Shown here: positions 17,830 to 64,000 of the stretch, piece after piece
Layout of the letters: each line of letters starts with the position of its first letter
Numbering within the stretch: position 1 is the stretch's first letter
From: Owenia fusiformis
Taxonomy: Eukaryota > Annelida > Polychaeta > Sabellida > Oweniidae
Assembly: GCA_903813345.2 (NCBI GenBank)
Contig: CAIIXF020000011.1
Location: 21,869,754-21,933,753, forward strand
DNA: 64,000 bases
Direction of reading: 5' to 3'
Translations under genes and position numbers: made by a program
Notes under the pieces: model-generated
Told to the model about the DNA's origin: nothing
Seen by the model: the letters and a program-made list of their open reading frames with translations, nothing else
Database searches by the model: none

Positions 17830-18010
17830 TGATCTGGACCCTCTGAAAAAAAGTTTCGTTGTCCGGTACTTTCCCACATAAAATGATTGTACCGTTTTAA
17901 AGAACAGACTTCCCTCTTAAAGAAAACACCTCTTCTATTGATAGAAACAGGGGCAAAAGGCACCAAAACGGGGTTAGACAAGGTGGCATTCTGAAGTCTC
18001 ACTTTCTTGT
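17830..18010. repeat. Left copy of a ~180-bp block inverted at 27790-27975
   Basis: Contains cacctcttctattgatagaa, acaggggcaaaaggcaccaa and aaggtggcattctgaagtct. The reverse complement of the same block, about 90% alike by eye, occurs at 27790-27975. Each lies between a 145-bp satellite and unique sequence, so the two sides mirror each other about a centre near 22.9 kb. Confidence 0.8.
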
Positions 18011-18512
18011 CATCACGATTCCTGGTAAACCATCAGACGGATTTACTTCAAATTTTCACACATGTTACATGGTAAGAAGTTCTAGAGCTGATTCACTTTG
18101 CGGCGGTCATCTTGCATTCTGGCAGCCATCTTGGAATTATTTTTAGATAAATATTGTCATCGCGATTTCACAAAAACCACATAACAGATGTACTTCAAAT
18201 GTTCACACATGTTACATGGTAAAAAGTCCTAGACCTGATTATTTTTTCGGTGGCCATCTTGCATTCTGGCAGCCATCTTGGAAGTTTTAAGATAAATCTT
18301 GTAATCACGATTTCAGGAAAACCAAACGGATTTACATCAAATTTCCACACATATTACATGGTAAGGAGTTCTAGAGCTAATTAACCTTTCGGCGGCCATC
18401 TTGCATTCTGGTGGCCATCTTGGAAGTTTCTTGGATAAATCTTGTCATCGTGATTCCAGGAAAACCACTTTACTGATTTTCTTGAAACTTTTACACATGT
18501 TACAGGCTACAT
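18010..18512. repeat. 145-bp satellite, four units, left side
   Basis: The block cacatgttacatggtaa recurs at about 18061, 18209, 18350 and 18496. Units also carry cgatttcaggaaaacca and ggccatcttgcattctgg. They are the reverse complement of the array at 26.4-27.8 kb. Confidence 0.88.
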
Positions 18513-22149: not shown

Positions 22150-25100
22150 TGTTGACATTCAAAGCATTTTATATTGATAAAGGAAGCATTTGCCCATATT
22201 TATATAAGGAAAAAATGACTATTCAACTTTCAATGCACTTTGAACTTGACACTGGCTAACTTTTTAAAAGACCTTCCATTTTATTCATGTTCTAACATTG
22301 ATTTTTTGGACTTAGCACATGGACTTGATCATTATGATAATCTTCTATTAAATCCACTTGACTTTAATAAACATTTAGCCACGGAAGACCAGTTTAACAA
22401 TGTTCAAACTCAAATGCATAGCATTTCTCAACAGTGTAATTTTGATAATATTGACAAATTAAACTCAACAATCAAATATGACTCATTTTCTTTACTTCAT
22501 CTGAACATGAGATGTTTACCAAAGAATAACTGGAAAATTGAAATGCTGAACTCTCTTAGTAAAAATTCTTTTTCTGTCATAGCAATGTCAGAAACCTGGT
22601 TAACAGAATCATCTGAAAAGCAATTTACATTAGATGGATATAATACTGTATTTGATTCAAGGAAACTTTCAAGAGGTGGCGGGGTTTGCATCCATATTGC
22701 AAATAATTACAATTTCATTGAAAGATCTGATCTTAAATTAAACTCTGATAAATGTGAATCTGTTTCCATAGAAATCAAACAAAATAAAGGGAAAAATATT
22801 TTGGTATCAGCTATTTATAAGCCACCTAATTTTAACTTACATGAATTTAATAATCTTTTTAATTCACACTTAGAGAAAATGGCATCTGAAAATAAGTTTG
22901 CCTATATTTTAGGGGACTTTAATGTTGACCTTCTGAAATCAAATGAACATGACCTTACAAATGACTTTTTGTGTAACTTGTATACTAATAATTTTATGCC
23001 TTTAATTTATAGACCTACAAGAATCACTAGTAACTGTGCTACATTAATTGATAACATTTTTACCAATGCAAATAATATCACCCAATCTGGTATAATTTTA
23101 TATGACATATCAGATCATTTTCCAATATATGCTGTAAGTAATAATGAAACACCTAAAATTAAAAAGCAAAAGATGCAATATCGAATAATAAATGATGAAA
23201 ATTGTTCCAAACTCCAAAATGAGGCCGCAAATATTAATTGGCAAGATATACTTGATCCAAATTGTATGAATAATGCATATAACTCCTTCATTGAGATTTT
23301 TACTGATATTTATAATAGATGTCTACCAAACAGATCCAGAATAATTAAAACCTATAATGATCATAAAAACCTTGGATTTCTCTCGGGATCATTATTTCAG
23401 CTAAATATAAAAACAAACTTTTTATAAAATATAAAAAGAATCCTACTTTAGAAAACAATGCATTATATACACGATATAAAAATAAGCTTAACCATGTCAT
23501 TAGAAATGCAGAAAAATCATATTACAGAAATAAATTTGAGACAAATAAAGGCAATATAAAGAAATCTTGGAATGTAATTAACTCTATCTTAAACAGAAAT
23601 CCAAATCAATCTAATATCAACGATACATTTGATCTTGAAAATAGACAAATCACAGATGGTCTCGACATTGCTAAGAATTTCAATGATTTTTTAGTGCAAT
23701 TGGTCATAAACTTGCAAAAAAGATAAACAATAATCTAGATCCAATGGTAAATTTAAAGAAAACTAATTCAAATAATAACTCAATATTTTTAACACCTATT
23801 ACTGAAACTGATGTCACGGCCCAATTAAAATCTTTAAAAGACTCTGCTGCATCTATAGATGATATAGAACCCAGAGTAGTGAAAACACTGAACGAATCTT
23901 TGTCAACTCCTCTTACTCAGATATTCAATTTATCAATAACTACTGGTACATTTCCTGATGCATTAAAAATAGCTAGAGTAATTCAAATTTATAAAAAAAG
24001 GCCTTAAAGATAAATTCAACAACTATAGACCAATTTCAATTCTCAGTGTATTTTCTAAAGTGCTTGAAAAAATTGTTCATGTAAAAGTGACAACATTTTT
24101 AGAAAAATATGAAATTTTATATTCACAACAATATGGTTTCAGGAAGAAGCACTCAACTTATATGACACTTCTAAATTTCATTGAAAATATTCGTAGGTCA
24201 TTAGATATCGGGGAAACTAGCATTGGGATATACATTGATTTGACTAAGGCTTTTGATACAGTGGATAACAAAATATTATTACAAAAACTTGAATTTTATG
24301 GTATTCGTGGAACAGCTCTTTCCTGGTTCAAAAGTTATCTCGAAAATCGAATTATGGTCACAGAAATTGTTAAGAAAGATGTATTGATTGATCAATTTAC
24401 AACTACAGATATTAGATATAGATCCGGTAAAAATAAAGTTGAATATTGTGTCCCTCAAGGTTCAGTCATAGGTCCCCTCTTGTTTATAATATTTATAAAT
24501 GACATACATTTAATATCAAATAAACTAAACTTTGTCTTATATGCTGATGATACTAATATCCTACTTACCAATAAAAATTTTGAAACTCTAGTCTCAGATA
24601 TGAATGCTGAATTAAAAACTGTTTCTAACTGGATGAAATCTAATAAATTAACTCTTAATGTAGAAAAAACAAAATATATGATATTTAATAAAAAGAAGGA
24701 TCCTAATAAAAACCAATATTATTCTCAAAATTAATGAACAACCTATAGAAGAAGTTAAAGAAATCAATTTTCTAGGTGTCATTATTGATTCAAAGCTGAA
24801 TTGGTATACAATGACCACTATCTATTACTCCATGATATATTCCTACTTAAGCTATTGTAACCTTTTATGGGGAAATGCCATGAAAACTCTTATTCAAAAA
24901 TTGTATGATTGTTCTGCAAAAGAAATTCTTGAGAGTTATCACCTATTCTGATCGTCTAGCTTCTTCAGGACCTCTCTTTTCAAAACTGAAAATATTGAAT
25001 ATATTTGACATCAATGAACTACAAACCGCTAGCTTTGTTCAGAAAACTGTTTCAGAATCACCAGATTTTCCTTTTCAAAAGTTCAAACATCTATTTGTTC

Positions 25101-26379: not shown

Positions 26380-27790
26380 TCACCATGTGCTTTGTTTACT
26401 CTGTTTTTGGAACAGTTTTTAGAACTTCTTACCATGTAACGTGTGTAAAAATTTCAAGAAAATCAGTTAAGTAGTTTTCCTGGAATCGCAATGACAAGAT
26501 TTATCTAAAAACGTTCAAGATGGCTGCTAGAATGCAAAATGGCTACTTATAAGTTGATCAGCTGTAGAACTTCTTACCATGTAACATGTGTGAAAATTTA
26601 AAGCAAATCAGTTAAGTGGTTTTCCTGGAATCGCAATTACAAGATTTATCTAAAAACGTTCAAGATGGCTGCTAGAATGCAAAATGGCTACTTAAAAGTT
26701 AATCAGCTCTATAACTTCTTACCATGTAACATTTGTAAAAATTTGAAGGAAACTGAAGTGGTTTTCCTTGAATCGCGATTACAAGATTTATCTAAAAACT
26801 TCCAAGATGGCCGCCAGAATGCAAGATGGCCACTGAAAAGTTGATCAGCTGTAGTACTTCTTACCATGTAACATGTGTGAAAATTTGAAGCAAATCTGTA
26901 AAGTGTTTTTTCTGGAATCGTGATGACAAGATTTATCTACAAACTTCCAAGATGGCCGCCAGAATGCAAGATGGCTATCGGAAAGTTAATCAGCTCTATA
27001 ACTTCTTACCATGTAACATGTGTGAAAATTTGAAGTAAAACTGTTACGTGGTTTTCCTGGAATTGTGATAACAAGATTTATCTAATAAAAACTTCCAAGA
27101 TGGCCGACAGAATGCAACATGGCCACCGAAAAGTTAATCAGCTCGAGAACTTCATACCATGTAACATGTGTGAAAATTCGAAGTAAAACTGTGAAGTGGT
27201 TTTTCTGGAATTGTGATCACAAGATTTATCTATAAACTTCCAAAATGGCCGCCAGAATGCAAGATGGCCACTGAAAAGTTAATCAGCTCTAGAACTTCAT
27301 ACCATGTAACATGTGTGAAAATTTGAAGCTAATCTGTAAGGTAGTTTTCCTGGAATCACGATGACAAGATTTATCCCAAAATTTCCAAGATGGCCACCAG
27401 AATGCAAGATGGCTGCCGAAAAGTTATTCACCTCTAGATTTTCTTACCATGTAACATGTGTGGAAATTTGAAGTAAATCCGTTTGGTTTTCCTGAAATCG
27501 TGATGACAAGATTTATCTTAAAACTTCAAAGATGGCCGCCAGAATGCAAGATGGCCACCGATAAACTAATGAGGTCTAGGACTTTTTATCATATAACATT
27601 TGTGAAAATTTGAAGTACATCTGTAGAGTGATTTTTCTGGAATCGCGATGACAAGATTTATCTTTAAAAAATCCAAGATGGCTGCCAGAATGCAAGATGG
27701 CCGCCGGAAAGTTAATCAGCTCTAGAACTTCCTTCCATGTAACATGTGTGAAAATGTGAAGTAAATCCATCTAATGTTTTTCTTAGAATC
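26380..27790. repeat. 145-bp satellite, ten units, right side
   Basis: The block accatgtaacatgtgtgaaaa recurs at 26431, 26576, 26721, 26863, 27008, 27156, 27301, 27446, ~27589 and 27734. Each unit also carries ttcctggaatcg-gatgacaagatttatct and aagatggccgccagaatgca. The orientation is opposite to the four-unit array at 18.0-18.5 kb. Confidence 0.93.
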
Positions 27791-28640
27791 GTGATGACTA
27801 GAAAATGAGACTTCAGAATACCACCTTGTCTAACCCTATTTTGGTGCCTTTTGCCCCTGTTTCTATCAATAGAAGAGGTGTTTTCTTGAAGAGGGAAGTC
27901 TGTTCTTTCAAACGGTACAATCATTTTATGTGGTAAAGTACCGGACAACGAAACACATTTTCTAGAGCCCTTTTGGAAATCAGATCAGGGACTAATAGGA
28001 GTTTTCCTATATTTGACCTTCTAATTTAGGTCTAATTTGAAAAAAATTAACTGCACAATATTGTCCTCGCGAAATTTACAAAACAATAACCGGTTTGTTG
28101 ATTTTACAAATAATATTAAAATAAGAGCTGATTTTCGAGACTTGAAAAAATGTAACGCATCGATTTTTTACCACAAATTCAATACATATCAAGTTACTAA
28201 CGCCTCAACTGGATTTCCTGACCGTTTTTCAAAATTCAAAAACATTTTAAGAATATTGTCCTCGAGATCTTGTTACCCTCTGAATTTTATTATGATTAAA
28301 TAAGGATAAATTATTTTATTTTTAGGTTGAAAAAACTTGTAACACTCGGCGTTTTTGACATTTGCGCCTTATACAGCTATACTGCTGATTGTTTTGTTTT
28401 GGTATTTTGACGCTATGTTATGCTAATTGTCCCCAGTTTCGTGCGACATCTGCGACATGGGGTCCCTATTCATAATTTTTCGAATAGTTCGATTGATATT
28501 TTTATCATCATGGGTACTTCACTTGAAAGAAAACAAATTCTTTTAATAAAAACCACTGTATTTATGCCCAGAAAGTACTCATGTTGAAAGATATGACCGT
28601 CTAAAATCACTTGCCATACTGCATTATGGTCTTTTAAGGT
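27790..28640. repeat. Right arm of the mirrored repeat region
   Basis: 27790-27975 is the inverted copy of 17830-18010. 28470-28622 is an inverted copy of the element B terminus (atcatcatgggtacttcact, agaaagtactcatg, aaatcacttgccatactgca). 28000-28460 between them is unassigned. The order satellite - block - element B end mirrors the left side. Confidence 0.75.
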
Positions 28641-28897: not shown

Positions 28898-31800
28898 ATG
28901 AGTCTGTTAAGAATTGTACAGAAAAGTGCGAAGTGGTCTCTCAGTGGACACCAGGCTATTGGTCGTATGATATGTTCTCAAACAAATACAAAATACCAAG
29001 TTGATAGACGGAAATATCAGACAATTAATACGAGTCGAGATGTTCTGATGGGTTCGCATAAGCAACAAAAATGTACGGTTTGTAGCCTCATTATGTATAT
29101 CTCATATCATCTTTGGGAAGTGATTAACAAGGAATTTACACGGGTTATTTGCAAAATACACGAAGTGCGTCCAAAGCGGTTTCTTCTCGCTCATCCTTGG
29201 CCCAAGAGTAATTCATTGCATGACATTCCAAGGATTACATTATTTCATGATCTGCTATGAAAGCAGTGAAGGGCCGATCTTGAAGGATGATTAAAAATTG
29301 TTTTATATAAATCCCATATAAATATGATGGACATTTTGCATCAAGAGACATTATCGCATTCTGTTAGCTTGTTTCTTGTAGTTGAAGGCAGAAAGATGAG
29401 ATGAGTATCAGAATGGACGTTTTGTAAAGATCATGAAAAACCGTTCTCAATTTCTCAAGCGTGCGATCGATGATATAAGGGAATGACGAGATGGAATAAT
29501 TGGTTACAACAAATTCTTCAACACATAAACTCAAGTGTCACTTTTTTGGCCCAAATCTAATATAGGCTATGTATAACAACAAAGCCCAAATTTTGGGCTC
29601 ATATAGGTCAGTAAATTAATTGTTGCTTCTCGCTTCTTTCAGATGAGCAGTTTTTGAGTATTCCACAGAGGGAACAGATAGGAAATAACGAGTCCGAGAT
29701 GGCTAGCCTTATACGTTCTACAAAGTGTTTGCTCCTTTGCCATTCATACAACACACTTTCTTTGGCAGTTGCAACAGAACTGAGGAGTTTCGGAGCTGAA
29801 GTGGACGTCAAAGTAATTCATAATGAGCATGACTTTACTATTGCTGATGAAGGAGATTTTGACATTATAATATGCCCATTTCTTGCAAGAAGAGTTCCAG
29901 AAAGGATTTGGAGTAATAAAAAGCGACCATGTTTGATTGTGCACCCAGGAATCCCAGGAGATCGGGGTCCCGCATCACTAGAGTTTGCGATAAAGAATAA
30001 GGCACTTCATTGGGGAGTTACAGTAAGCGATTCGCACCACGTTTTTTGGCATTTTTCTAATGTTATATTCACTGGATGTCATCTACTAATCTGGATGATG
30101 TCGTAGAGCAGGTCGTTTTTATTACACGAAAGGACCATTCTCATAGTGGACGTCCGGCGAATTTGAAGCACGATTGTTGTCATTGCATGTGCAAGGTCAT
30201 TTTTGCGAATAAGCAGCTTTCCAGTAAAAAAAAATTGTGTGAAAATGTTGAAAGGGACATTCTCGGTTTGGAGAATGAAGTTCATCGGCATATTTTGATG
30301 TTATCAATGTCGCCAACAATTTTGATTTTTTACATAGTGTTGATTGAAATGTGATCCTTTGAATATTTCAGCTTTTGTTATGGTAATATTTTTATTTCTT
30401 TCATAAATCAAATATTAGCAAACATTGATAACGTCGAAATAAGCCAATGAATGGCCCTTTCAATATTTTCACACAATCGTGCTTCAAATTCGTCGGACGT
30501 CCACTATAATTTAATACCCGACGAAGCTACTGAAAAAGGCGCGAACGTCCTACACTCTGAATGATCGTTTTTTCCATTATAACTGTTAAACGAATGCTTC
30601 TAATAAATTATCATCCTTGAAAATCTAAACACAGATTAAAATACACCTCATTTCGAACAGGTACACTTGCCTTTATAATTCTTTTGAAAAATAATAGAAT
30701 ATAACTATGAACGATGTGGCGGAGCAAGCAATGCAGTGGATTCTTCAAAAAACGACCTTCTCCCGTGATATTGATTGTCGTCGTATTGTGCTATTAGGCG
30801 TGCGTCTGTCTTGACGGACGGGCGTGCGCCATACAAACTTGTCAGAATTTTTTTAGGAAAACTCCCTAGCCTATCTGCTCAACCTGTAATCTATATGAGT
30901 GGCTTCAAGTTGGCAAAGTATGAATGGCTTTAAATTCGTGTCAGTCGGTGGATCACCCCTAAACATTCTGATTGTTTTTCCAATAGGTTTTGCAAGCAGA
31001 AGAGGAGTTTGACAGAGGTCCTATTTGGGCATACAGCATGTACCCAATATCTGATAGAAACACCACAAAGACCGAATTGTATGTGTCTGAAGTTACAGAA
31101 AATGCTGTGGATACAGTACTGAGAGCGGTAGCAAAATTTAAACAAGGGGATTCACCAAAACCATGGCAATATGGTGCTGTTGACATCAAAGGAAATCTCC
31201 AGCCAAAGATAAAAAAGGCAGATAGAAGGATCGACTGGAACCAACATGCGAGCGATGTTGCTCGCCTTATACGAATGTTTGACACCCAACCTGGGGCACA
31301 TGGTTTTTTGAAAGTAAGAGGACACGCGGGCTGTAATTGTGACAATTAGTATATTTATTGACATGATGGTATCCCGAAGCTTGATCATTGTTCAATGGTG
31401 TGTCATTGCATGTACTTATGTTAAGTCCTTGTGTTAAGTCAATACTCTCTTGCTGAAATCCCCATTTTCTCAGAAGAACTCAATTCTATCGAATCTGAAC
31501 AAGAAGATTCATGCTAGATAGTATTGCTAGAATCCATTTTCAATAGTAAGAGCTTGGGTTCTTGAACGTGACATTGGGCTTGCTTTTTAGAACTTTTTGT
31601 CTGTAATCTAATTAAAACATGATCAAATTATGTTTCAATAATTTAATTTCAGGGGATTGATGGAGAGATTCGGTTTTTTGGCGCCAAAGAAACGCAACCA
31701 CTTTTATACTGTGGCGATGAAATGCGCGATCTCTTATCATCTGCTGAACCAGGCGAGCCAATAGGCATGAAACACAACGCGATACTCATAAAGTGTGGAG

Positions 31801-34800
31801 AGGATTCATCATTGTGGGTGTCTCATTTGAAGGTATGATGTCAGTAATCGTGTATGATACTTGGAGGTTTCTTTCCACTGCAATTGCACCTGTAACATTG
31901 CAGTTTGAAATTACATCTTTATCAAAACTTTTCAAAGAAATTCATAACAAAGATTTGATTTGACAATCTCAGTAGCAATACAGAGGATCACACGATAAAA
32001 ACCTTATTGAATGATTTGAAGTGCAATACAGGATACATTCTGTCTCGATATTCTGTCTCGTTCCAATACGGAATTTCTCGAGCGGAATATATCCTGTATT
32101 GCAGGATACATTCTGTCTCAATATTCTGTATTGCCACTCGACTTCGTCTCGTTCCAATATGGAATTTCTCGAGCAGAATATATCCTGTATTGCACTTCAA
32201 ATCATTCAATAACTTATATTATTGAATGATTTGAAGTGCAATACAGGATATATTCTGTTCGAGATATTTTGTATTGGAACGAGACGAAGTCGAGTGCCAA
32301 TACAGAATATCGAGACAGAATATATCCTGTATTGCATTTCAAATCATTCAATAACGGTTTTATCGTGTGGTCCGCTGTATTGCTACTGAGATTGTCCCCT
32401 CCGTACCAATATTTTCTGTATTGCGACGGAGATGATCAACGGGGACAATCTCAGTAGCAATACAGATTGGTACAGCACAAGAACTGACCAATCAGAAGCC
32501 TTATTCATAAAGCCAACGTAAATATTTCCATTTACGTCCACGTAACTCAATTATACGTTGGACGTAAAAACATCTCTCCGTCGTATTTATAAACATATGC
32601 GGAAATTGGAGATCTACGTCTAACTTTCCGCAAGGACTTACGCAATGAAAATAATATACTACATACTCCCATATCATGTCCCAATTTTGTGATCACGTGC
32701 ATGTACGTATTTGAATATGATTGCATCGTTCACGCACGCGTAATTTGACGCGTTCCTCATTGTCACGGTTGCTCCTTGATTATTTATACCCCTATATAAA
32801 AGCTTATCGTATTCCTTTCGACTTCATTTTCTCATTCATTGATTTACACAAAAGTACTATTGTTTTTGACGATACCTGAATTAATGGTGGAAGGGCACAG
32901 TTCCTCCGTGTTGGGGAACTTATCATGCATAGCCGTAGGGACCGGGGGTTCGATGGGTTCGGGATTTCTCCCAAAAAAAATATTTGTGGAAAAATTCATT
33001 GCAAGAACCAGAAACATATATTCAATTTATATGACCAGTAGGAAAAAATAGTAAAGGAAGAGGTGCGATTATTGGCAAATATTCCTATGGTCAAAATGAA
33101 TCATTCTTAGGTGTAACATGAAGAATAGAATGTCATATAATACTTTGGAAAATATCAAAGTGCTCGGGCACACATAAGCTGAGTTAGGGATCATTTCGTT
33201 CAATAAGGTAGTATTGACTTACATGGGGCTATGCACCATTGACTTAACATGAGGATATCAGCAGATCCCAACAGAGGCCATTGGTTTCCATTGATTATCA
33301 CAGAAATACCAAAAAAACACTATGACCTGAATCGATTGCAAACTTTATAATTAAACAATATGACACAAATGGTTCATTTCATCAAATGTGCAAATATGAA
33401 GTTTGCAATCGATTCAGGTCATACTTTAAATTAAAAGATTGTACATTTTTTCATCATTTTTTCCCTACAAAATGGCTATAAAAAATGCTCTAAAAACATA
33501 TTTTTATTATCCATCACTTTTTAAGGAAAAATAAATCCATTGCGAAAAAATCAGTTTTGTTTTTGCCATCCTCCTAAGCAGGTTTCCAGAATCCGTACCT
33601 CCTTCTTCCCCCTAAAAAGAAAGAATATATTTTTGAAGCCCTGTGATCGGAGGATGGTTTTTGCAGATGCACGTTTTTTAATTTTAAGATTAAATTGTTG
33701 CTGTTTCAGTGTATTTAGTGTTTACTCTATTTTCAAGAATATCAAACTTTAGTGGATCGTGTTAATGTCATTAATTAATTTAATTATATATGTTTAGCAA
33801 ATAAATGGATTAAGGGAGGCAATTAGGTGAGTATGTCTCTGGTACTAAATACAAGTGTAAGCTAAAAAGGTACACACATTACTTGCAGTGGAAAGTTCTG
33901 TCCAATAAAAAAAAGCCAGTTGCAGTCATCTTTTGCTGAGGAAAGCAAAGGCATAAGGAGGATTATATCAAATAAGACTAGATTTATTAAGTATTTCGAA
34001 TGAGTATTTTATATCCACAGTTAAAGTAACACATTTATGATGTATCTAAAATCTAAAACCTCAAAAAGTGATAGATATGACTATATGTTGTATAAAAAGA
34101 GATTTTTAAAAAAAAATTGTGTCTGAGAGATAAATAAAAAAGAAAAAAACCTTAGTATAGACCGGGAATCGAACCACCGATTCAAGCTATCAAAACCTTA
34201 GTCCAGCGCCTTACTCTATTAGGCCACACTGGCATAATGAAATAACACTGTAATTCTAAAGCTATCTTATAAATTTTAGAAGACAGTCGAATCACTGCAT
34301 AAGATTAATAAAAAAAATAGTCAATAATCATTTTAATATCTATTTCGGTAAATTTTTAAGTCAAAACCAGGATTGATGATGTAAATTCATTCATTTAGAT
34401 AATCTATTTCCTGTTAATGAGTCGTAAAAAACATGGCTCCGAAAAAATATTTCTTGCATCCAAATTTCAAAATGATATATATCCATGGATCAGTTATTTT
34501 TGGCACATGAACCCATCCTAATAGAAAGGTAAGACTATTTTCTTGACTCATATCGCTTAAATTGTCGAAATTCGGCCTAGAATCGTAAATGTGTCACTTA
34601 AGGGGAAAAGTTCATCATTAACCCTACCAATATGCATTGCTTCCTGATATACTATTTGTCATCTGTCACTTCTATCGTCAGTACCAATTGAGAGTATTCG
34701 TGCAGCCATTACGACTTTTATTGTGCGCCATGATTAAGTATCATATCTTCAAAAATATTTGCTTTTGAATATACTAGTATTCAGAAACTAACTGTAAGTT

Positions 34801-37800
34801 CATGAGGTCATTATGAACTCCTCTATTACAAAATGAAATGGCAGATAAAATTCTTTTGATTTGGATTCTTCTCAAAAATCATCTAAAAGTGTGGGAATAG
34901 CATGCCAGAATTTGACATAATATATCTTTGAATGATGAATTGGGAATGACGACTTTTTCAATGGTAGCTCGTTAAAAATATGTTCCTTAGAGATATGTTG
35001 TAATTTGCCCTTAACAAAATTGTCTCAATGTATGCTAACCCTTCATTTGGATTTCATTGAACAATTAAACAATTGTTATATAAAATGTATGATTTTGCTA
35101 CCAGATTTCAATATCTTTCAGTAAAAGATTCAACAAAAACTATTTCAATATAGAAAATCAAATTGTTGCCAAACTTTTGGAGGGGTGTAAATTGTATGTA
35201 TGACAAATACAAAAAATGCTTTTATGTGAGGTACACCGATGAAGGGGGAGATTTGTGGATACATAAAAAATCGAACCCCTGGTCACCAATTGCTGGCTAC
35301 TCCAAAATTAAATGCCTCGGTAATCTGAACCTCGTAAGAAGCTCCCTATCATCAAAGATTTCGAGGGGATTGCTACGATCCCTAAGCAATCGCTCTCGTC
35401 TAAGAGACCGTCTTACTGCAAAGATGCGCACATCTACCACAAAAGCCATCTTTGCTTACATGCGTTTGTTCTTTCTTTCTATTACGTAATGATGACGCAT
35501 TGGCATTTGAAAATAATTTACGTTGAACGTATATGAAAGATACGTTGCTGTTAACGCTTGGACACCTAGAAATTGATGACATTTTCGTACCTGTCTTTGG
35601 AACCAGCTAGAAACTTGAAGATGTCAAGCAAATGACAAATCATTTTAACATTACGTATTATATCTAAAACAAGTGTTTCACAAAATCTCATGGTAATTGG
35701 ATACTAAACGTACGAATAAATAGTGTTTTTAAGGCTGGACGTAAAGTTACACGGTGAAGATACTTGACGTAAATATTTTGTAAGATCCGCAGGACTTTAC
35801 GTTCATCGTAAACTTACGTTTGCTTTATGAATACCAAAATAAGTTTCCGTAATACGATACGTTGACGTAAGTCCTATGTTGGCTTTATGAATAAGGCTAC
35901 AGAGGGCTTCATCTTACAGATCATACGATAAAATTATATATCATAATTATATCACATGTACAGTATTTCGGCATGCATTTCCTTTATTGTTTTAGTCAAA
36001 CAAAATCCCAGGAGTAAAGGACATAAAGTTACCAGCAACGATGGTGTACACAAGACCACTGGCTGAAATGAACACGCTTGACTACGAGGATATTTGGGTA
36101 GAGAGGCGAGATAATGTTGCATACGTCCATTTTGATTTTTATAACGGCGCCATGAACGTGTCACAGTCTCAACGCCTCCAAACCACGCTAAAAAACATCA
36201 AACTGCAGGACGATATACACATAGTAGTTCTCATGGGCGGAAAACGGTTCTTCTCTACTGGTAATTTTTTAATCAAATATCACGAAAATGTTAACATATA
36301 CTTATACATGTTATAGTACTTCTTAGCAGTCTGAGGGCCATTTTATTGGAAAAGCCAATTGAAGAATTGCAGCCCACGTCGTACAGATACAAATCCACTG
36401 CGATATTCTAGACTGTGAAGAATCAAATGCGTCGTGTAAATCATGTTTTTACTTTAATCATGTTGAATCATTTTCCATTTGATAGGAATTCACTTGAATG
36501 TGATCGAGCAGGTAGATGAACCACACATTGAGTCATATGCCAACATAGAAGCAATAGATGGTGTCATCAAAGAATATGTTCAAATGGAAGATAAACTAGT
36601 TATAGCGTGTCTCCAAGGAAACGCTGGTGCTGGAGGTTGTATGATGAGCGCAGCAGCAGACTATACTATAGCCCATAAGGTATTGTCTGATTAAAATTCA
36701 GGGCACTTGGATGGCCCAAAATGACAGTGTAAAAGGGTTTTGTACTGGGAGGTTTTGAATACAGGGTTTATTATCCTAATATATTAAAAATTTATGTCAG
36801 ATGTCGTATAACATCAGGCTTTGACTGGAAGATTGATACAGGTACAATTACGTAAATCAGGTAACCGGACCACTCATCCCCTAGACAACTCATCCCCTGG
36901 ACAACTCATCCCCTAGACAATTCATCCCCTGGACGACTCATCCTTTGACACGTTTGAGTTAATTCATATATTATTCAAATGATTTTTATGACCAAATGTC
37001 TTGGTTATCTACGTGAAGCCCTTGTACTTCACCAAACTTTCTTATTCCCCCAGTTGTAGGCAGAATATCATATGTCTGGAAGAAAATGTGCATGTGTGCA
37101 AACAAAGAAGACAACACAATCCTCGATTTTATACCCCACTTTTGTTCCGTAAACATAACCTCAAAAATGATCTGCACTTCTAACTCTTTCCATTTATATA
37201 ACAATAGTTAAGGTATTATAGCGACGATTCTGTTGTCTTCCGAGTACAAGTGAACAAAGACTTTCTTGAGGGGAAATCTGGAAAGAAAACTATGATATAC
37301 CATGGTAATACTATGGTATTGTCAAGGAGATAGTCAACCAATAATATGTAATTTGTTTTGTAAATATTTACCTTTAATTTTAATATTATGTTAACATTGA
37401 TTGAAGAAGCTCCTTCGATGTCATAAGCTCCTTTGATGTCATTATATGTTTGTTGTTCATAGTTCAAATATTCTTTAATCCAAAGATTATTTTTTCACAG
37501 TAGTCACAGATGAAGTTACTGAAGTTCATGTTTCAAAATTATGCAGAAAGAAAACTTTATTTTTTGTCATGAAATATTAAGTCATGTGATATAAGGACAA
37601 GAGATGATTGTGTCAATAAAGTGAAATTTAATATTAAGAATGATTCAAAATGTATTTAATAAATATTTATTTTCAAAAAAAACTTTACAATTTATGAAAA
37701 GGGATTAGTTGTCTAGGGGATGAGCTGTCCAGGGGATGAGTTGTCTGGGGGATGAGATGTCCAGGGGATGAGTTGTCCTGGGGATGAGATGTCTAGGGAT

Positions 37801-38866
37801 GAGTTGTCTAGGGGATGAGTTGTTCGTAAGCCGTAAATCATATCCATCTTGTTAAACTGATCGTTTTGTAGAGTTAATGGGGAGTTAATTTGGAAAAATC
37901 TGAACATTTCATGAGACCAATGTACTTGTCATTGTAGTGCGTTTCTTTGACTCCAACATACAAAAACATGAACTTATACGGTTCTGAATATTGGACGTAC
38001 TTCCTACCAAAGAAAATTGGTGAAGAAATGGCGCTTCGTCTCACGTCTGGCACTGACTCGATAATGGCTAGCGAGGCATACTCCATTGGCCTTGTTGATA
38101 TTCTCCTCGGAAGGTAATTATATCGCATACGTTAATTCAGAATCAAATTGCTTCTATTCAACGACCTCATTTATTAAGTATATTATGTTTTTATGTTATG
38201 CTCTTTTATGTCATGTTATGTTATATGAATGTTATGGGCGTATGTAACACGCGGTACTAACTCGACAGGGCGTATCGAAACCAAAACGCCCCAAAGAAGG
38301 GGTAGGTTTGAAATTCAAATTAACGGTTTTGCGGAGCGTTTTGGTTTCGATACGCCCCGGTGAGTTAGTACAGCGTGTGTATAATTTACGAGTATTTGCA
38401 TCATTTATACAAGGCATTAACATGCACAATGTCACCACCACCAGTTACAGACGCCAACCGCCGATCGCCAACCGCCGATCGCCAACCGCCGTCACAAAAA
38501 ACGGAGACCATAACAATTTGTCACCACTTTTTGATGGTGACATAATTATAAGACACAGTTACATAACATCCAGTATAGTTTGAAATGAAGTTCTAAAATA
38601 TTCTTAGTACTATTTACAAGAATGATGAATGTTCCTTAAAATATTTTTTCAGAAATCGTTACGAATTACAGGACAACCTTCATAGAACAGTCACTGCAAT
38701 TTGGAACAGCATTGATGCTGGACTTTTTCTCCATTCGAAGTCAAGGCGGTCGGAAAAATGGTACGAAAATCTGGAGGAGCACAGGGCAGCTGAATTACAT
38801 CACATGAAGAAGTGCTTTTCGGATCCTGCTTATCATTCTGCACGCAGGAATTTTGTCTTTCATTGA
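28898..38866 (+). CDS. hypX: HypX/HoxX-like protein: formyltransferase plus enoyl-CoA-hydratase-fold, eight exons
   Basis: Exons 28898-29072, 29643-30022, 30987-31313, 31653-31832, 35996-36260, 36486-36679, 37938-38113 and 38653-38866 join with GT-AG sites and matching phases into 636 residues ending in TGA. Residues 1-58 (MSLLRIVQKSAKWSLSGHQA...) are basic and nearly without acidic residues, suggesting a mitochondrial presequence. Residues ~80-185 are the formyl-THF-transferase-type domain with the HypX hallmark HPGIPGDRGP (159-168) and HWGVT|VLQAEEEFDRGPIWA. Residues ~186-354 match its C-terminal part (GFLKGIDGEIRFFGA). Residues ~385-600 are a crotonase-fold domain: FDFYNGAMNVSQSQRL, GKRFFSTGIHLNVIEQ and QGNAGAGGCMMSAAADYTIA (oxyanion region). 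In bacteria HypX takes the formyl group of N10-formyl-THF via formyl-CoA to CO, a ligand of [NiFe]-hydrogenase. Animals are not known to have that hydrogenase, so the role here is open. No domain is missing or broken. Confidence 0.9.
29073..29642. other. HypX-like gene intron 1
   Basis: Opens gtacgg and closes ctttcag. No repeat or gene is recognised inside. An uninterrupted frame continues past the donor to ~29260 but loses any resemblance to the family. Confidence 0.6.
30023..30986. other. HypX-like gene intron 2
   Basis: Opens gtaagc and closes ccaatag. It contains two inverted blocks: acgattgttgtcattgc / tttccag..gtgtgaaaatgttg near 30165-30255, echoed by cacacaatcgtgcttcaaat near 30470-30490, and gtccactat repeated in both orientations. 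This suggests a small decayed inverted-repeat element. Nothing coding. Confidence 0.5.
31962..32396. mobile_element. Large palindromic MITE F, 435 bp
   Basis: The outer arms gacaatctcagtagcaatac and gtattgctactgagattgtc continue inward through cacgataaaaacc / ggttttatcgtg, ttgaatgatttgaagtgcaa / ttgcatttcaaatcattcaa and tacaggata / tatcctgta, giving arms of about 75-110 bp. The centre repeats the gtctcgatattctgt and ggaatttctcgagc text. A partial third copy of the end (gacaatctcagtagcaatac) lies at about 32442. It sits in HypX intron 4. Confidence 0.88.
33321..33423. repeat. Perfect 25-bp-arm hairpin
   Basis: tatgacctgaatcgattgca+aactt at 33321-33345 is the exact reverse complement of 33399-33423, with a 53-bp loop. 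It lies inside element G. Confidence 0.9.
34145..34235 (-). repeat. tRNA-derived SINE head or tRNA pseudogene
   Basis: Read on the minus strand: gccagtgtggcctaatagag-taaggcgctgg gives an A box (TGGCCTAATAGAG) and ggttcgattcc is a perfect B box, ~60 bp apart. An AAG anticodon would sit in the loop (Leu-like), but anticodon and T stems have several mismatches and the acceptor arms do not pair. It is therefore not a working tRNA gene. A tRNA-derived SINE is the most likely origin. Confidence 0.65.
36873..37833. mobile_element. Element H with inverted subterminal tandem repeats, HypX intron 6
   Basis: The left side (36873-36950) has about five copies of the ~20-bp unit actcatcccctagacaa / ctcatcccctggac. 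The right side (37705-37833) has about seven copies of its reverse complement (tgtctaggggatgag, tgtccaggggatgag). Such mirrored short repeats are typical of the ends of a non-autonomous DNA transposon. A single copy of the unit also occurs at 58365. Hairpin MITE E2 is nested inside. Confidence 0.72.
37105..37240. mobile_element. Hairpin MITE E2, nested in element H
   Basis: Starts aagaagacaacacaatcctc and ends gcgacgattctgttgtcttc, like the element at 26104-26244, but with more decayed arms. Confidence 0.75.
38248..38377. mobile_element. Palindromic MITE I, 130 bp, HypX intron 7
   Basis: The left arm cacgcggtactaactc...gggcgtatcgaaaccaaaa and the right arm ttttggtttcgatacgcccc...gagttagtac-agcgtg form arms of about 45 bp around a short centre (ggtttgaaattcaaattaac). 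It is a deletion-type relative of the 836-bp element at 58784-59619. Confidence 0.88.
38415..38552. repeat. Dispersed atgtcaccac repeat with accgccgatcgcca tandem
   Basis: Bounded by caatgtcaccaccacc and ggtgacataattat, with three tandem copies of accgccgatcgcca inside. It belongs to the family noted at 2.7, 11.3, 19.8 and 63.7 kb. Confidence 0.6.
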
Positions 38867-41935: not shown

Positions 41936-43910
41936 TCAACTTGTTGATTGTTTCATTTTGTCCAGAAATTCTAAATAAACTTTTTTCTGTTGACTGGTAG
42001 CTGGTATAAAATGTCCCCCCTTGTGTTGAAGTATCGTAGGCTCTCTGAAACTACCTAGGAGTTCTTCACTCATTTCACCGGATATCACTTTATCTGTCTC
42101 ACCATACACATGTAACGTTGGTATAGTAATGGGCTCTTTAAATAATTCTTGGTGTTCTATTGATTTGCTTATAAAACTTGCCACCATAATTGCAAATTTG
42201 AACTGGAATGGTCCATCTGGATTTCTCTGCATTTCCCCACACAATAATGCTACCATAGCAGCCCCTTGACTAAATCCTAATACACCATCAAATGGACCTT
42301 GTTCTCGGAAAGTTTGTTCAATTACTAGTAACGAGTCTTTGTACCCTTTAATACAGTTGGCTTGCTCGGTTGCATTGAAATAATCATCTTGACGAGAGAA
42401 CCACCAACCCTTCTGGTCAGGAGTCTGGTCTTCAACATTTTCCATTGGAGGCACCTGGAACACAATAGATTTCTAAATTAAATATTAAGAAATAATTTAA
42501 AGCAATCACAGAACTAGAAATAATTTCACTTCATAATGTAGATGAAGAAGAGCAAAATACAATAACTTATTGTCACCTATAAGAAGAGTGGCACCATTCA
42601 CTAACTTACTAAATGATATTTTTCTATCAAAACAGACATGCAGGGTATACATGTAGCTGTTTTCATATACTTTCAATACTTGGATTATTCTAATTATCCT
42701 GAACCTGAACCTCATACACAGAATATCTCTTATGTTTATTTATATTTGTCTCATGAAAACAAAAGAAAAGTTGAAACTGATCAATGATATGAATTATCAA
42801 ACTTATTCTGGAGTTTCTCATCATGTGTCAACAGATCACTAAAACAGCAGTTGGCAGTCTAATTACTGTGGTTGAAATGATGGAATATTAAATTGTTACC
42901 CTTGTTGTGCCCTTGTTACCCCTCCCCCCACAACTGTGTGACAAGGTCAGGGCTGTCAACTTGGGACCACCTAATATGAGTGACTTCAAAATGTTGGACA
43001 CCTAAGTCCAAATCTGAACACTTTTGTCCAAATTTTGAACACCTTTGGCCAACTTTTAAACACCTTTGGCCAAAGTTTGAGCACCTTTGCCAAACTTTGA
43101 TCACCTCAAATTTTTCGCGCTCGCAACGCTCGCGATATCGTCAACGGGGGGGGGGGGGGGGGGGGGTAGGTACGAAAATTTCCAATGAACATGCGTGACA
43201 TATACGGGATTCGCGTGACAAATCCGAACAAGTTGCGTTCGGTTTTTTTCCGACGTTCGTATTTTTACCGTATCATAAACATATTTCGAAAAAAATTCTA
43301 CAGAAATATTTTTGCGTGACAATTACCAGGTAAAATGCGTATTTGCGTGACATTTTCTGTCACGCAAAAAAAACTGGCGTGACTTCAAATTCTTCAGCAA
43401 ATGCGTGACAAATACGCAAATTGCGGGACAGTTGACAGGCCTGCAAGGTGTGTAGTCAAGTAGAGGGGGGGGGGGGGTCACAGGGTCTTGTAGCTAGGCT
43501 AGTGCCAAATATTCAGCCAGTTATAACCATTCTGTACATTGTAATTAAACAAGACATAATTAAAAAGTAAATATCTTTGCATATTTTTTCAGCTAGTTCA
43601 CTTGACTAGACATTACCTCAACCAGTCTACCATATACCAAAATGGTATTATGGTACATTATATGTATACTGGCAAAGACATTCAACCACATGTACCTCAA
43701 ACCTATTTGCTACCAAAAATTTGACTAACTATATCACTGATTCACTTCTAGTAACTGTACCTGATTAGGCGCGTCAATGAAGACTAGATCTGCTCTGTTT
43801 TTTATAATCTTCCTAAAGGCCCCTGTCCTTTCACGGAATGCCTTAGCATTTTGTCTGTACCCATGGAGACATAAAATCCTCAACATTTTGTTTCCTTTTC
43901 CTTCTGCCAT
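41936..43910 (-). CDS. OVCA2: OVCA2-like serine hydrolase (FSH1/LovG-type esterase)
   Basis: Exon 1 is 43761-43910 and exon 2 is 41936-42454; they join CAG|GTACAG to CCAG|GTGCC in phase for 222 residues, close to human OVCA2 (about 227). It is an alpha/beta-hydrolase fold esterase; family members cleave long-chain alkyl esters. The first in-frame ATG gives MAEGKGNKMLRILCLHGYRQ. GFSQGAA carries the nucleophile Ser (about residue 116), HVYGETDKVI the acid Asp and HKGGHFIPA the His, so the triad is complete. GWWF before the lid and the FREKTGA-like FRERTGAFRK are family signatures. There is no signal peptide, so it is probably cytosolic. TIR element J copy 2 lies in the single intron. Confidence 0.94.
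42948..43443. mobile_element. TIR element J, copy 2, in the OVCA2 intron
   Basis: Ends CAGGGCTGTCAACTTGGGACC and GGGACAGTTGACAGGCCTG (without their outermost shared bases), flanked by an exact 6-bp duplication CAAGGT at 42942-42947 and 43444-43449. It is reversed relative to copy 1 and has the same gcgtgacaaatacgcaaatt interior and cacctttggccaa tandem units. A run of about 23 G residues lies at 43144-43166. Confidence 0.88.
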
Positions 43911-48751: not shown

Positions 48752-51700
48752 TCTCCCTTTTTTTTCTTTTTGAATGATACAGTAATTTTATCAGTCTATA
48801 GGCCTATGTTTAAATGTTCAAAAGTGTCTACAATTTTGAGAGTCTTCATCTGTAGATATATATAGCAGGGTATCAAAAGTCAATATTCACTGCTTATGAG
48901 TCCATGTCTCAAACCTGTATTCATCCTGTGCACTTATCATGTTGAATACGGTAGTAGAAAATACTGTATGCTGATTTTGTTTTTCTTATACACATCTCTA
49001 ACAAAAGATTGTCTAACATATAATCAATACAAATGTTTAAAATAAAACATGCATTATAAAACGTAATCCACACCAATCTGTGTTGTTTGAACATTTTATA
49101 AAAATCATTATCTAAACAAACTGTTAACTATGTGTACATTATTATGAGCTTTAATCATTTAATGTCTGAATGTACACTACTGTCTTATGAGACTTGACAG
49201 TTTATATGCATGAAAAGTATTATTTCAAGTTACATAGTCTTTGAGCCATTTTGGCTGATTTACAATCCTCTTTGATTTCCTTAATGGAGAACTAGAACTT
49301 GGTTCAGTGATAATAGAGCTATGAGAGACTGGTGTAGTATTACTAGTAAGTGGAACATTATTAGTATTTTGACCACCACTATCCATCCCTCCCTCCTTGG
49401 GATGTTTGCTTGACAAAAACACCATTGGTTTAAGCATGTTAGAACCCCGTTCAGGAGTAGGAGTAGGATCATGGCCTGTTGGCATCAAATGTCTACGATT
49501 TCTCCTGAACAAAGTTCCACTGTCACTTTTGATAATGTATGACCTAGGAGTGTGAGCTTGATTGAGAACCTTATATGGTTTACTCCATGCCTTTTCCTGA
49601 TCAAGCTTCACTCTCACAGACTGTCCAGGGGACAGTTTCTCAAGTTTTCTTGCACCATGAGATCTGTTAAAATGTTTGGCATACAGTGATTTTGCTTTAG
49701 CATCATTGTTTTGAACTTCCTGTTTATCAGGCCAATTTGGGTTTAGATTCTCAGGCGAAACTGGCAGTTTAGTTCTGATTTGTCTACCATAGAGTAATTG
49801 ACTTGGCGTTTTACCTGTAGAACTGACTGGAGTGGCCCGATAATTCATAAGGGAGCTTAAGGGGTCTTCTGATTTGAGAATACGTTTGGCAGTTTGGACG
49901 GCTCTTTCTGCGAGACCGTTACTTTGACTGTATCTGGGACTTGATGTTACATGTTTAAAATCAAACTCTTTTGCGAAATCTGCAAATTGTTTTGAGCTAA
50001 ACTGTGGTCCATTATCTGATACTAACACTTCAGGGATACCATTCCTGGCAAATATCTTTTTGAGTTTGTTTATGATTTGAGTTGTTGTGACACTACCCCT
50101 AACATGAGCAATTTCTAGATAGCGAGAATAGTAATCAACTGTGACTAAATATTGCTTCTTGAAGCATTCACATAAATCAGTTGCTAATTGCTGCCAGGGG
50201 CGATCTGGTAATTTTGTTGGAATTAATGGTTCACTTCTCTGTTTAGGTTTCAAAATTTGGCAGTGCTTACATTTGGCCACCAATTCTTTGATTTGTGATG
50301 TAAGCCCTGGCCACCATACTGTCGCATTGGCGCGTTCACGGCATTTGTGAATTCCGAAGTGACCCTCGTGAATTTGATCAAGAATATTATTGCGACATGC
50401 AGCCGGTATAGTGATACGGTTACCATACATAAGTATGTCATTGACAACACTCAAGGATTCTCTACAATCATAGTATCGCTTGGCAACTTCTTTCACGTCT
50501 TTGTAATATTCCGGCCAACCATGAAGAACATAATTCATGACTGTTGAGATTTCGGGATCAATCTGTGACAAGTCACGAATATTCTCAAGACGCGACTTCG
50601 CGACTGGTAGGTTATCATATATGAAACTCTCATATTCCTTCACACTTTCTACAGTGTTTGATTCCATGCTACTAAGCGGTTTTCTAGACAATGTGTCTGC
50701 TATGACTAATGTCTTTCCGGGTCTGTATTCAGCGATACAATTAAACCTCATGAGACGAATTAGCATTCTCTGGCATCGCACCGGTGTTTGATCAAGATCC
50801 TTTTGATTTATAATTGGCACCAGAGGTTTGTGATCAGTCACATATACAAATGATTCTAGTCCGACCAAATACTGACTGAATTTTTCCATTGACCACACCC
50901 CTGCCAAAAGTTCCTTTTCAATTTGAGCATAGCGGCGTTCGGCATCAGTTAATGAACGAGAACAGTAATGAACAGGAAACCAATCTGTTCCATGCTGTTG
51001 CTCTAAGACACCGCCTAACCCGTAACAGCTACTGTCAGCACTAACACGCGATGGCTTATTGATGTCGTAGTATTTTAGAACAGGCTTACTACTTACCTTC
51101 TGTTTCACTGTTTCAAAGGCATCCATTTGTGCTTTTCCCCATGTCCAAATTGTGTATTTTCTCAAAAGTTCATTCAATGGGTGAAGCATTGTAGATAAGT
51201 TTGGTATAAACCTACCTATCCAATTTATCATGCCTAAGAATCGTCGTAATTCTTCAACATTTTCAGGAATTTCCATTTCCACTATCGCGGCGACTTTGGC
51301 TGGGTCTGGCGAGACTCCATTAGCGCTAATTTTATGCCCTAAAAATACGAGCTCGGGCTTCCGGTAATGACACTTCGCCTTGTTGAGAACTAGACCGGAC
51401 TGTTTGATTTTCTGTAAGACTTGTTTGAGATTTTTATCATGATCTTCAACATTCTTACCATGAACGATAATATCATCCATGAATACTGCTACTCCAGGGC
51501 AATTTTGCAAAATGCGCGACATTTCTCTTTGAAAGATTTCTGGAGCAAGCGATATGCCTTGTGGCATCTTCTTGTATACATAACGACCGAAGGGTGTTAT
51601 AAACGTTGTTAAACGCTGACTTACCTCGCTAAGTGGCACTTGATGAAAACCTCCTGTGGCGTCGAGGGTTGAAAAGACAGAACTTCCCGAAAGTTTCTGT

Positions 51701-53772
51701 AATATACAGTCAATGGTTGGTAAGACAAATCTCTCGCGCTTAACGGATTTATTAAGTTTTCTAAAGTCAACCGTCACGCGAATTTTTCCTGATTTTGAAA
51801 CTACCGGGACCATGGGTGAACACCACTCAGTAGGCTCAGTTATCTTGGCAATAACACCATTGGATTCCATTGATTCGAGTTTTTCTTGTAATGGTTTCAT
51901 TATAGGAAATGGAACGCGCCTAGGTACCACAACAGCATATGGTTCAGCATCTTGCTTCAACTCAATTTTGACAGGCTCACATTTCATTGTACCCACTTCC
52001 CCATACAATTCATTATCATTTATGGGGTCTTTTACATGACCTGGCATTTCAGAAGTATTGTTACTAGGGGGCATTGTAGTTTTATTTCTATGGTTACCAG
52101 GATCAGAACCAATTTTACCTGCCTCGCTCTGAGAGGTCTGAGTTACAACATGTACATTTTTAGTAACTAGATTCAACATTTTAGCAGATCTGCGACATAA
52201 TAAGTTATCACACTTTGGCCCATTTAATACAAATATTCTCATTGAGAATTTGGTACCATCAAGATTGCTATTTGTTATAAAATAACCTCTTGTATCTATT
52301 ACCCCACCTACTGACTTCAGTGGAGGACCATCATGCCTTTGTAACCTAGGTTTTGGTGTAAGGCATTCATATGCATTGTTACTCATAACATTTACATCAG
52401 CGCCTGTGTCGATCTTGAAACTCATCAATTTACCACAAATGGGTAAGGTCACACGCCATGGTGGCTCTGTGTGCCTATCTACAATCAGTGACTTGGCAGA
52501 ATCAACCAAATGCACAAGCTCACCTACATGAAACTCAGTAGTGTCAAGATCGGCTTCAGCACATTCATCATAACATTCATGTACAACTCTTTTATCAACA
52601 GATTTCTTATTTGATTTACACACACTTGAGAAATGATTTAATTTCTTGCAATTATGACAGGTTTTTCCTTTAGCAGGGCATTTATCATTTCTGTGAATGT
52701 AGCCACATCTGTCACACTTGTGTTTGTCTGCTTTGTGTTGTGCCTGGTCTTGTTTTCTGTAGTTTTGTCGTGTAGCTCTCTGTTGCGGGGGTCGCTTACG
52801 AACAAAATCAACGTTACTTGTATCAGTAGGTCTCCCTTCAGCTTGAGACTGTGATATTATAAGTTCATGACTACGAACTAGTTCAATAGTTTTCTCTAGG
52901 GTGAGATCACACGTCATGGCAAGTGTCTGGACTCGCTCTGACAAGTCTCTGTCTTTGATGGAAACGATGATCTTATCGCGAATCATTTCGTTTCTGTCAA
53001 CGAATGAACAATGTTGACTCAGTTTATACAAATCTCGGATATATTCCTCCATTGTTTCTGACTCTCCCAGTTGTCTAAGGTTGAAGACCCTTCGTTCATG
53101 AATAATGTTTATCTTTGGCACAAAATAGTTATCAAATTTGCCCAAAACGGCATCAAAATTGTACCTGTTGTCTGGCGGATCAAGTATTTGGCCATCTTCA
53201 GCAACTGGTAAGGGCTCAAACGTAAACTGTTTGTATATGTCCTCTGCGGATTGGCCCATAATATATATAAGTTGACTGACTTGTGTAATATCATCCTCTT
53301 TGTTAAGTTTTGTAGCTAGCCTAAACCTCAGGAACCTTTCTCTCCAAGCAATCCACTCATTGGGTTTATCAAAGTTAAAAGGGTTTGGAGGCTGTATCTT
53401 GGCCATTATCATAATCCAAAGATGACAATATAATCACGATAGTTAATACACAAGAGTAGAAGTACAGTTCACAAGTTTAAATATCAGTTGGACTCCAATT
53501 CTTACTGTAGTACAGCAGCAATGACGCAATCCATGGCATTTGCATATCTCCGCGAAGCAATGGCGTAATCCGTGTCGTGTGCACGAAGCAATGATGTAAT
53601 CCGTGTCGTGCGCAAAAATGTCATGCTCGAAATTTGCACAAAATTTCACCGGCAATCAAAGTTAAACACCAAAAATACCTCTAATCTGGTCACTTTCAGA
53701 CAAGTTTTACATGTCCTACTTTTTCTCTGTGGTTTTATATCCCCGTAGGCTCGCATCCCACATCTGACACCA

Positions 53773-63422: not shown

Positions 63423-63428
63423 CTGAAA

Positions 63429-64000
63429 TACAGAGAGCAATATCATGCATTATACAATAATAATGTTCAGAAAATAGTGTATGCAACACTACAATTCATC
63501 TAATGAGAAACCAATCTGTGTATAACTTCACAAATATTTTGAGTTTTGTTCATATCATTGATAATAAGCTTATCATCACTTAACCAATAAATCATGATGC
63601 ATCATTCATCATCGATTCTAATCGTAGATCAACAAGTTAAACCTTGTCTGCACTATCTGACATCTGTATGTGTGTTTAACTTCTTATCATAGTCCGCTAA
63701 CAAAGCAAAACAATGCATAATGTCACCACCTGCCATTTGTCACAGACCCTGAACACTGACCACCAAACATCAACTGATGAATGCTGACCACCGTTTACTT
63801 TCCACAAAAAGTTGGAGACTATACCAACATGTCACAACTACTTGTGATGACATAAAAATCAAATCAAGTAAATTTCATGTGCATGAAATTAATTCCTGAT
63901 TTTGTAATGTTTCTCGTAAAATAATGAGATCCAAGAAAGCAAACGAACCTCATGAATAAAAACACATCATCCCATATCCCCATTTGTCTTTGATATCGTT
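63429..64000. other. NFU1 intron (partial) with dispersed repeat
   Basis: 63714-63856 belongs to the atgtcaccacc / ggatgacat family: it starts aatgtcaccacctgcc, has gaacactgaccaccaaa twice-like text, and ends cttgtgatgacataaaaatc. The rest is unassigned. Confidence 0.55.

Follow-up and report, generated by a model that had tools for sequence, protein, structure and literature searches.

The 64,000-nucleotide stretch of the annelid Owenia fusiformis genome analyzed here (GenBank assembly GCA_903813345.2, contig CAIIXF020000011.1, positions 21,869,754 to 21,933,753 of the forward strand; hereafter the window, numbered from its first letter) comprises, at 28898-38866, a spliced gene encoding a homologue of the bacterial protein HypX. 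The gene product is probably, with a likelihood of about 0.72, a functional HypX, most likely mitochondrial, that makes carbon monoxide (CO) from one-carbon folate with no hydrogenase as its client. The CO-forming reaction, the placement in mitochondria and the purpose of the CO in Owenia are inferred from sequence.

Domain architecture and active site

The Owenia protein displays the Pfam domains Formyl_trans_N, Formyl_trans_C and ECH_1, in that order on one chain and all over their curated cut-offs. With the 559-residue core as query, five Aquifex HoxX/HypX sequences lead the list of solved structures (residues 9-557, E 8e-97 to 4e-99), followed by a next-best match at E 6.8e-10; HypX scores about 330 bits and the next family 41 bits. 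Weak matches in the N-terminal region comprise the hydrolase domain of 10-formyl-tetrahydrofolate (10-formyl-THF) dehydrogenase (FDH; 4qpc, 2bw0, 7rlu). A chance resemblance to HypX is ruled out by the near-full-length match (residues 9-557 of 559, E 3.6e-99), and an ordinary crotonase or FDH is rejected on similarity, since both match parts only, at far lower scores. No NCBIfam model reached its cut-off with the Owenia protein among the best 25 of 61 matches, and the aldehyde dehydrogenase domain, by which an ALDH1L protein would be recognized, is absent from the four Pfam families matched.

An earlier sequence-only reading of this stretch had assigned the gene to HypX, and the domains, the catalytic residues and the full-length similarity to Aquifex HypX bear this out. 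The hallmarks it relied on, HPGIPGDRGP, the WGVT-VLQAEEEFDRGPIW block and the crotonase AGAGG (as NAGAGG), are all found in the translation, and placement among ordinary FDH or crotonase proteins, one of the outcomes it had named as fatal, is not what the far lower scores of those families indicate on similarity, the trees described below containing no FDH or crotonase rows.

The active site of Aquifex HypX provides the framework for this comparison. In PMC6802093, His74, Asp80 and Asp109 are proposed for formyl transfer to coenzyme A (CoA), and Tyr416 and Glu426 for decarbonylation, direct experimental results being then still outstanding; the same paper reports that the Ralstonia equivalents of Y416 and E426 are required for HypX function, and that Asp80 stands where FDH has its triad Ser. 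Later work from the Lenz group, as related in PMC12134894, showed that bacterial HypX forms formyl-CoA and releases CO. By alignment, all five proposed catalytic residues are present in Owenia, as H159 (29942..29944), D165 (29960..29962), D194 (31011..31013) and the putative decarbonylation residues Y515 (37959..37961) and E524 (37986..37988), all on the forward strand. The five are kept in 64/64 rows of the eukaryotic clade (30 eukaryotic by organism name, the others by source or tree position) and in 264 of 275 aligned HypX rows, Aquifex included; the 11 exceptions comprise five rows that lack some of the five columns and six with Thr at 416. In addition, the CoA 3'-phosphate contacts S194, Q195 and N306 of Aquifex correspond to T285, Q286 and N404.

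Compared to bacterial HypX/HoxX (Aquifex aeolicus, 6J0P; Ralstonia HypX), the Owenia protein thus preserves all three Pfam domains throughout the core, the five proposed catalytic residues and the equivalent of Ala392 (A491), but differs in its seven introns, its 85-residue N-terminal extension, its changed CoA 5'-diphosphate contacts and a host genome in which HypD and the [NiFe] large subunit were not found. The animal FDH enzymes ALDH1L1/2 share with it an N-terminal formyl-THF-binding region, as a weak match, whereas Owenia HypX carries a crotonase domain instead of an aldehyde dehydrogenase domain, and has Asp at the position of the triad Ser of FDH.

Search for hydrogenase partners

A six-frame search of the whole Owenia genome (498 Mb in 525 contigs, the gene lying on contig G000:C11) gave 0 candidates for HypD (PF01924) and 0 for the [NiFe] large subunit (PF00374), the only two partners included, other Hyp proteins not being searched for. 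Among 14 control genomes, the same searches recovered HypD in four and the large subunit in five, four of the latter over cut-off, and the same tool recovered the Owenia HypX exons. The view of the sequence-only reading that the enzyme has no known client is supported as far as these two proteins go. The Owenia gene is a HypX homologue, and it is filed as such and not as a hydrogenase maturation factor because neither HypD nor the large subunit is matched in its own genome.

Gene structure, second copy, and N-terminal extension

The gene comprises eight forward-strand exons joined by seven GT-AG introns with consistent phases, encoding 636 residues. Exon 1 (28898..29072, GT donor at 29073) contains the start Met and a presequence-like N-terminal extension; exon 2 (29643..30022, acceptor AG 29642, donor GT 30023) contains the formyltransferase subdomain with HPGIPGDRGP and, at 29699, an internal Met near the start point of bacterial HypX proteins. 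According to the exon model, exon 3 (30987..31313) encodes the remainder of the formyltransferase subdomain and the region after it. Exon 4 (31653..31832) encodes the Formyl_trans_C region and exon 5 (35996..36260) the linker and the start of the crotonase domain, both also supported by Pfam. The crotonase domain continues through exon 6 (36486..36679, with NAGAGG) and exon 7 (37938..38113, with the decarbonylation residues), and exon 8 (38653..38866) encodes the C-terminal region and the stop. With 29072 as the last base of exon 1 and 29643 as the first of exon 2, the translation is identical to the public Owenia model P0001; the alternative junction 29077/29651 likewise gives 636 residues, with a sequence that differs locally from P0001. 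The previously proposed eight-exon gene hence stands in its GT-AG exons, phase and length, while its exon 1/2 junction, whose position that reading left unstated, is to be set at 29072/29643.

A paralogue, P0002, lies on contig C1 and is 89% identical to Owenia HypX, its exon blocks breaking at the same seven positions as those of P0001, within one residue. Over 622 codons, which exclude the first 11 residues of P0002, the Nei-Gojobori rates of nonsynonymous (dN) and synonymous (dS) substitution are 0.076 and 0.294 (dN/dS 0.26), and purifying selection is observed between the two open-frame copies. Bacterial contamination is ruled out by the introns, the paralogue, the position in the tree and the animal-type neighboring genes. 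That the gene is a settled nuclear one, as had been proposed, is supported by the seven introns, the paralogue with matching introns and the grouping with a nemertean inside the animal clade.

In the alignment, 85 residues of the Owenia protein precede Aquifex residue 2, and its first 30 residues contain no Asp or Glu and four Arg or Lys. An extension of at least 17 residues before the core is displayed by 26/29 of the eukaryotic proteins listed versus 0/16 bacteria, all 16 listed bacterial HypX proteins beginning at the core, and 25 of the 29 have at most one Asp/Glu among their first 30 residues. The presequence-like extension is wanting in Hydra (6 residues), Bradysia (9) and Chrysoparadoxa (0). 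In many animals the composition of the extension resembles that of a mitochondrial presequence, and the extensions of moss and Chara may be plastid-type. The presequence-like N-terminus noted earlier for Owenia alone recurs, as a basic, acidic-poor start, in many eukaryotic orthologues.

Distribution and phylogeny of the eukaryotic proteins

Orthologues are found in nemerteans, bivalves, brachiopods, amphioxus, cnidarians, placozoans, tardigrades and rotifers, and also in a fly, moss, Chara and brown algae. The rarity implied by the sequence-only reading is not borne out, as the family is already annotated automatically in many animals as 'hydrogenase maturation factor HoxX-like'. Among the matches listed from open-licence literature without preprints, searched by titles and the openings of abstracts, there is no published study of eukaryotic HypX. 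The family is automatically annotated, so it is not categorically new; the new aspect would be its proposed hydrogenase-free, folate-coupled and possibly CO-signalling or CO-filling role.

For the phylogeny, 87 of the 275 rows were chosen, and a 70-row set was made by dropping 17 redundant, long-branched or short rows; both trees, with Aquifex as the root, comprise HypX rows alone and include neither crotonases nor formyl-THF dehydrogenases as an outgroup. Owenia HypX is nested among the HypX rows so sampled in both. In the 70-row tree (support as bootstrap/SH-aLRT), the 50 eukaryotic rows form one clade (97/95) whose sister is the HypX of Bacilli and Bacteroidetes (union 100/100); within it, an animal clade of 26 rows is supported at 99/98, and Owenia groups with the nemertean Tubulanus (100/99). 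The quick 87-row tree is concordant, placing the 64 eukaryotic rows together (SH-aLRT 99), with a long branch (0.81) to the two Owenia copies. Rotifers fall outside the 26-row animal clade, and the tardigrade, fly (Bradysia), moss and Chara proteins, together with further rows, form one clade (100/99) apart from other animals; these placements may reflect transfers between eukaryotes or old paralogues.

Fusions with FolD

FolD converts methylene-THF to 10-formyl-THF. Fusions in which HypX is followed by FolD (PF00763 + PF02882) occur in Ascophyllum, the brown-algal-type P0069, Chrysoparadoxa, the rotifers Adineta and Rotaria and other eukaryotes, with partial FolD on a Didymodactylos protein and on a fragment labelled Undpi1, a label that probably denotes Undaria. 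The fusions of brown algae, Chrysoparadoxa and rotifers have the same HypX part as Owenia and belong to the same eukaryotic clade, but carry an extra C-terminal FolD (PF00763 + PF02882) missing from the Owenia protein. The FolD active-site residues Y52, K56, Q100 and D125, whose numbering and roles we take from human FolD-type enzymes, are retained without change in 12 of the 15 eukaryotic-type fusions aligned, a set that includes P0135 and P0169, both outside the tree; the exceptions are P0049, with Phe for Tyr, and P0172 and P0177, with Asn for Asp. The bacterial fusion P0179 has a weakly supported position in the 70-row tree (79/68), so that the fusion may have arisen once or twice.

Bacterial HypX with and without hydrogenase

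The bacterial comparison comprises 80 loci retained from a genome scan that gave at least 583 relatives. BLAST queried with Hyp and [NiFe] proteins from L003 and L046 places such a gene within the flank at 41/80 and none at 39/80, some flanks being short, and a motif scan gives a count of 35. Of 30 genomes picked with preference for loci lacking nearby hydrogenase genes, a whole-genome search finds HypD in 20 and does not find it in 10. A [NiFe] large subunit over cut-off was not found in 9 of these 10, the completeness of the genomes not being given: Peribacillus huizhouensis, Bacillus aerolatus, four Lysobacter (one with a match below cut-off), Marinomonas transparens, a Methyloglobulus metagenome-assembled genome and Andreprevotia. 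Hydrogenase-free status for all HypD-less bacteria is rejected, because Methylocapsa aurea (G021) and G420 have a [NiFe] large subunit; the HypD-less G429 and G529 show a short over-cut-off match.

In Peribacillus and B. aerolatus, according to open reading frame (ORF) calls, the gene after HypX encodes an MHYT-PAS-GGDEF-EAL protein, 55 and 41 bases on (L004:10001-14159 and L006:1107-5326; two Bacilli in which HypD and the [NiFe] large subunit were not found genome-wide). An MHYT domain senses CO, with copper, according to PMC11347149, and the pair could possibly form a circuit from CO to cyclic di-GMP (c-di-GMP). At E 1e-60, HypX occurs in 1/299 genomes from the order of Peribacillus, that of Peribacillus itself; the evidence for the MHYT link in Bacilli thus comes from two genomes. 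These two proteins resemble the Owenia one in that neither HypD nor the large subunit was found in their genomes, and the Bacilli/Bacteroidetes branch is sister to the eukaryotes, Owenia included; they differ in adjoining a c-di-GMP signalling gene, a link not looked for in Owenia.

Methanotrophs from the order of G026 carry HypX in 69/251 genomes (E 1e-60), and 60 HypX stretches from 48 genomes were compared by BLAST. A Hyp or [NiFe] gene lies near HypX in 0/60, formate-THF ligase in 3/60 and a DJ-1/AraC regulator in 41/60; in 11/60 an MHYT protein is encoded on the HypX strand at a distance of no more than 1.2 kb. HypX adjoins MHYT genes at L142-L151 and L155, and the four neighbors put to Pfam (L032, the contig of L142; L143; L147; L155) are MHYT-PAS-histidine kinases. 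MHYT genes are rare, 15 of the 48 genomes having any, and 12 of the 19 such genes adjoin HypX. Since the stretches make up only about 0.3% of the genomes' sequence, this association greatly exceeds chance expectation, although the methanotrophs concerned are interrelated. The HypX ORF spans at least 717 residues in 19/60 stretches, and both long ORFs examined carry a C-terminal hemerythrin domain (L174:5600-7771, L165:5263-7707). Genes for 10-formyl-THF synthesis also occur: in Methylotetracoccus folD is directly upstream of hypX, and in the first locus set formate-THF ligase adjoins or lies near HypX at L061 (the contig of L126) and L062. HypX stands beside the ligase or FolD at L061:2790-7544, L062:1487-5659 and L019:8130-12826. 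The DJ-1/AraC regulator is present at L061 and L019. Of the six methanotroph genomes in which HypD is missing, G022, G376 and G525 have no [NiFe] match either, G376 being MHYT-linked. In some bacteria, HypX without detectable HypD or [NiFe] subunit, or beside MHYT or 10-formyl-THF-making genes, thus offers a parallel to the eukaryotic proteins.

Proposed function and competing explanations

In the mechanism proposed for Owenia, the N-terminal domain would transfer formyl from 10-formyl-THF onto bound CoA, giving formyl-CoA, and the C-terminal crotonase domain would split this into CO and CoA, with THF recycled after formyl transfer. There being no hydrogenase to build, CO and the freed THF would be the output, for signalling or one-carbon overflow. 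Of the three roles suggested by the sequence-only reading (formate/formyl-THF disposal, formyl-CoA chemistry and endogenous CO production), the last, with 10-formyl-THF as the source, is favored by the fusions with FolD and by the conservation of the decarbonylation residues.

Several observations weigh against this proposal. The CoA 5'-diphosphate contacts R9, Q15 and R131 are lost in Owenia (replaced by S, L and V, respectively); in PMC6802093, CoA was still bound when these three were mutated together with R542. FolD is not fused to HypX in Owenia, and the listed Hydra protein has a 6-residue extension only, so mitochondrial import is not general. The bacterial fusions L001 (Chloroflexi), P0173 and P0179 carry Ile for the cyclohydrolase Lys, therefore that FolD may not make 10-formyl-THF, and the change counts against a simple supply role in these three. 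Finally, HypD is present in 42/48 of the methanotroph genomes with HypX neighborhoods, and therefore their HypX could still serve hydrogenase.

A rather unlikely alternative is the disposal of formyl-THF or formyl-CoA, in which formate is released or formyl-CoA passed on, CO is minor or nil and the benefit is THF recycling, like that of ALDH1L1/2. The N-terminal domain does resemble the hydrolase domain of FDH, a FolD fusion would suit any use of formyl-THF, and we know of no need for folate-derived CO in animals. This is countered by the conservation of Y416 and E426 in all 64 eukaryotic rows, the Ralstonia equivalents being needed for function, and by the retention, as D165, of the Asp80 that replaces the FDH triad Ser (both from PMC6802093). 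A relic protein whose activity has been lost or altered, and which persists on some other account, would explain the diverged N-terminal CoA contacts and the long branch of the two Owenia copies, but sits poorly with the retention of all five proposed catalytic residues, a dN/dS of 0.26 and two open frames, and we regard it as very improbable. Marginally less probable again is a retained maturation factor that supplies CO to a still unknown eukaryotic Fe-CO metallocofactor: ligand supply is the characterized role of the HypX family, yet the Fe(CN)2CO group is assembled on the HypCD scaffold (both according to PMC12134894), and neither HypD nor the [NiFe] large subunit was found in the Owenia genome.

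CO-filled floats and wider implications

In siphonophores serine C3 is the source of CO, and aminopterin blocks its production. HypX is present in Hydra, in the hydrozoan-branch proteins P0025, P0026, P0028, P0039 and P0048, and in brown algae, siphonophore and Nereocystis sequences lying outside the comparison. To our knowledge, most of the named HypX holders have no CO-filled float, and therefore buoyancy would be a special use. CO is secreted by the siphonophore gas gland, as stated in PMC3916360, and the Nereocystis bulb is rich in CO, as stated in PMC9601103. The siphonophore papers PMC8844502 and PMC13327316 (main text) contain no mention of monoxide, folate or hydrogenase, nor, in PMC13327316, where this term was checked, of HypX.

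A wider proposal, which we put forward tentatively and hold to be possible but somewhat doubtful, is that eukaryotic HypX represents a second, heme-independent CO synthase and the missing enzyme for siphonophore, perhaps also kelp-bladder, CO from serine-derived folate, and that in bacteria HypX freed from hydrogenase would pair with MHYT or hemerythrin sensors in CO signalling. Should the enzyme indeed produce CO, a folate route to CO would exist beside heme oxygenase in many invertebrates, some plants and brown algae, the open question of which enzyme fills siphonophore floats with CO would gain a named candidate gene, and the bacterial cases would point to CO as an internally made signal.

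Other features of the window

Elsewhere the window contains (i) LINE-type endonuclease and reverse-transcriptase frames on the forward strand (22219-24731); (ii) a Gypsy-type reverse transcriptase/RNase H/integrase frame of 1402 residues on the reverse strand (49228-53433); (iii) a reverse-strand FSH1 serine hydrolase frame, presumably OVCA2-like (41939-42472); and (iv) a reverse-strand Nfu_N + NifU frame, which we take to be an NFU1-like iron-sulphur scaffold (62755-63495). Tandem repeats with a 147-base unit (18005-18504) and a 145-base unit (26420-27802) are also present, the two consensus units appearing, by eye, to be partly reverse complements of each other.

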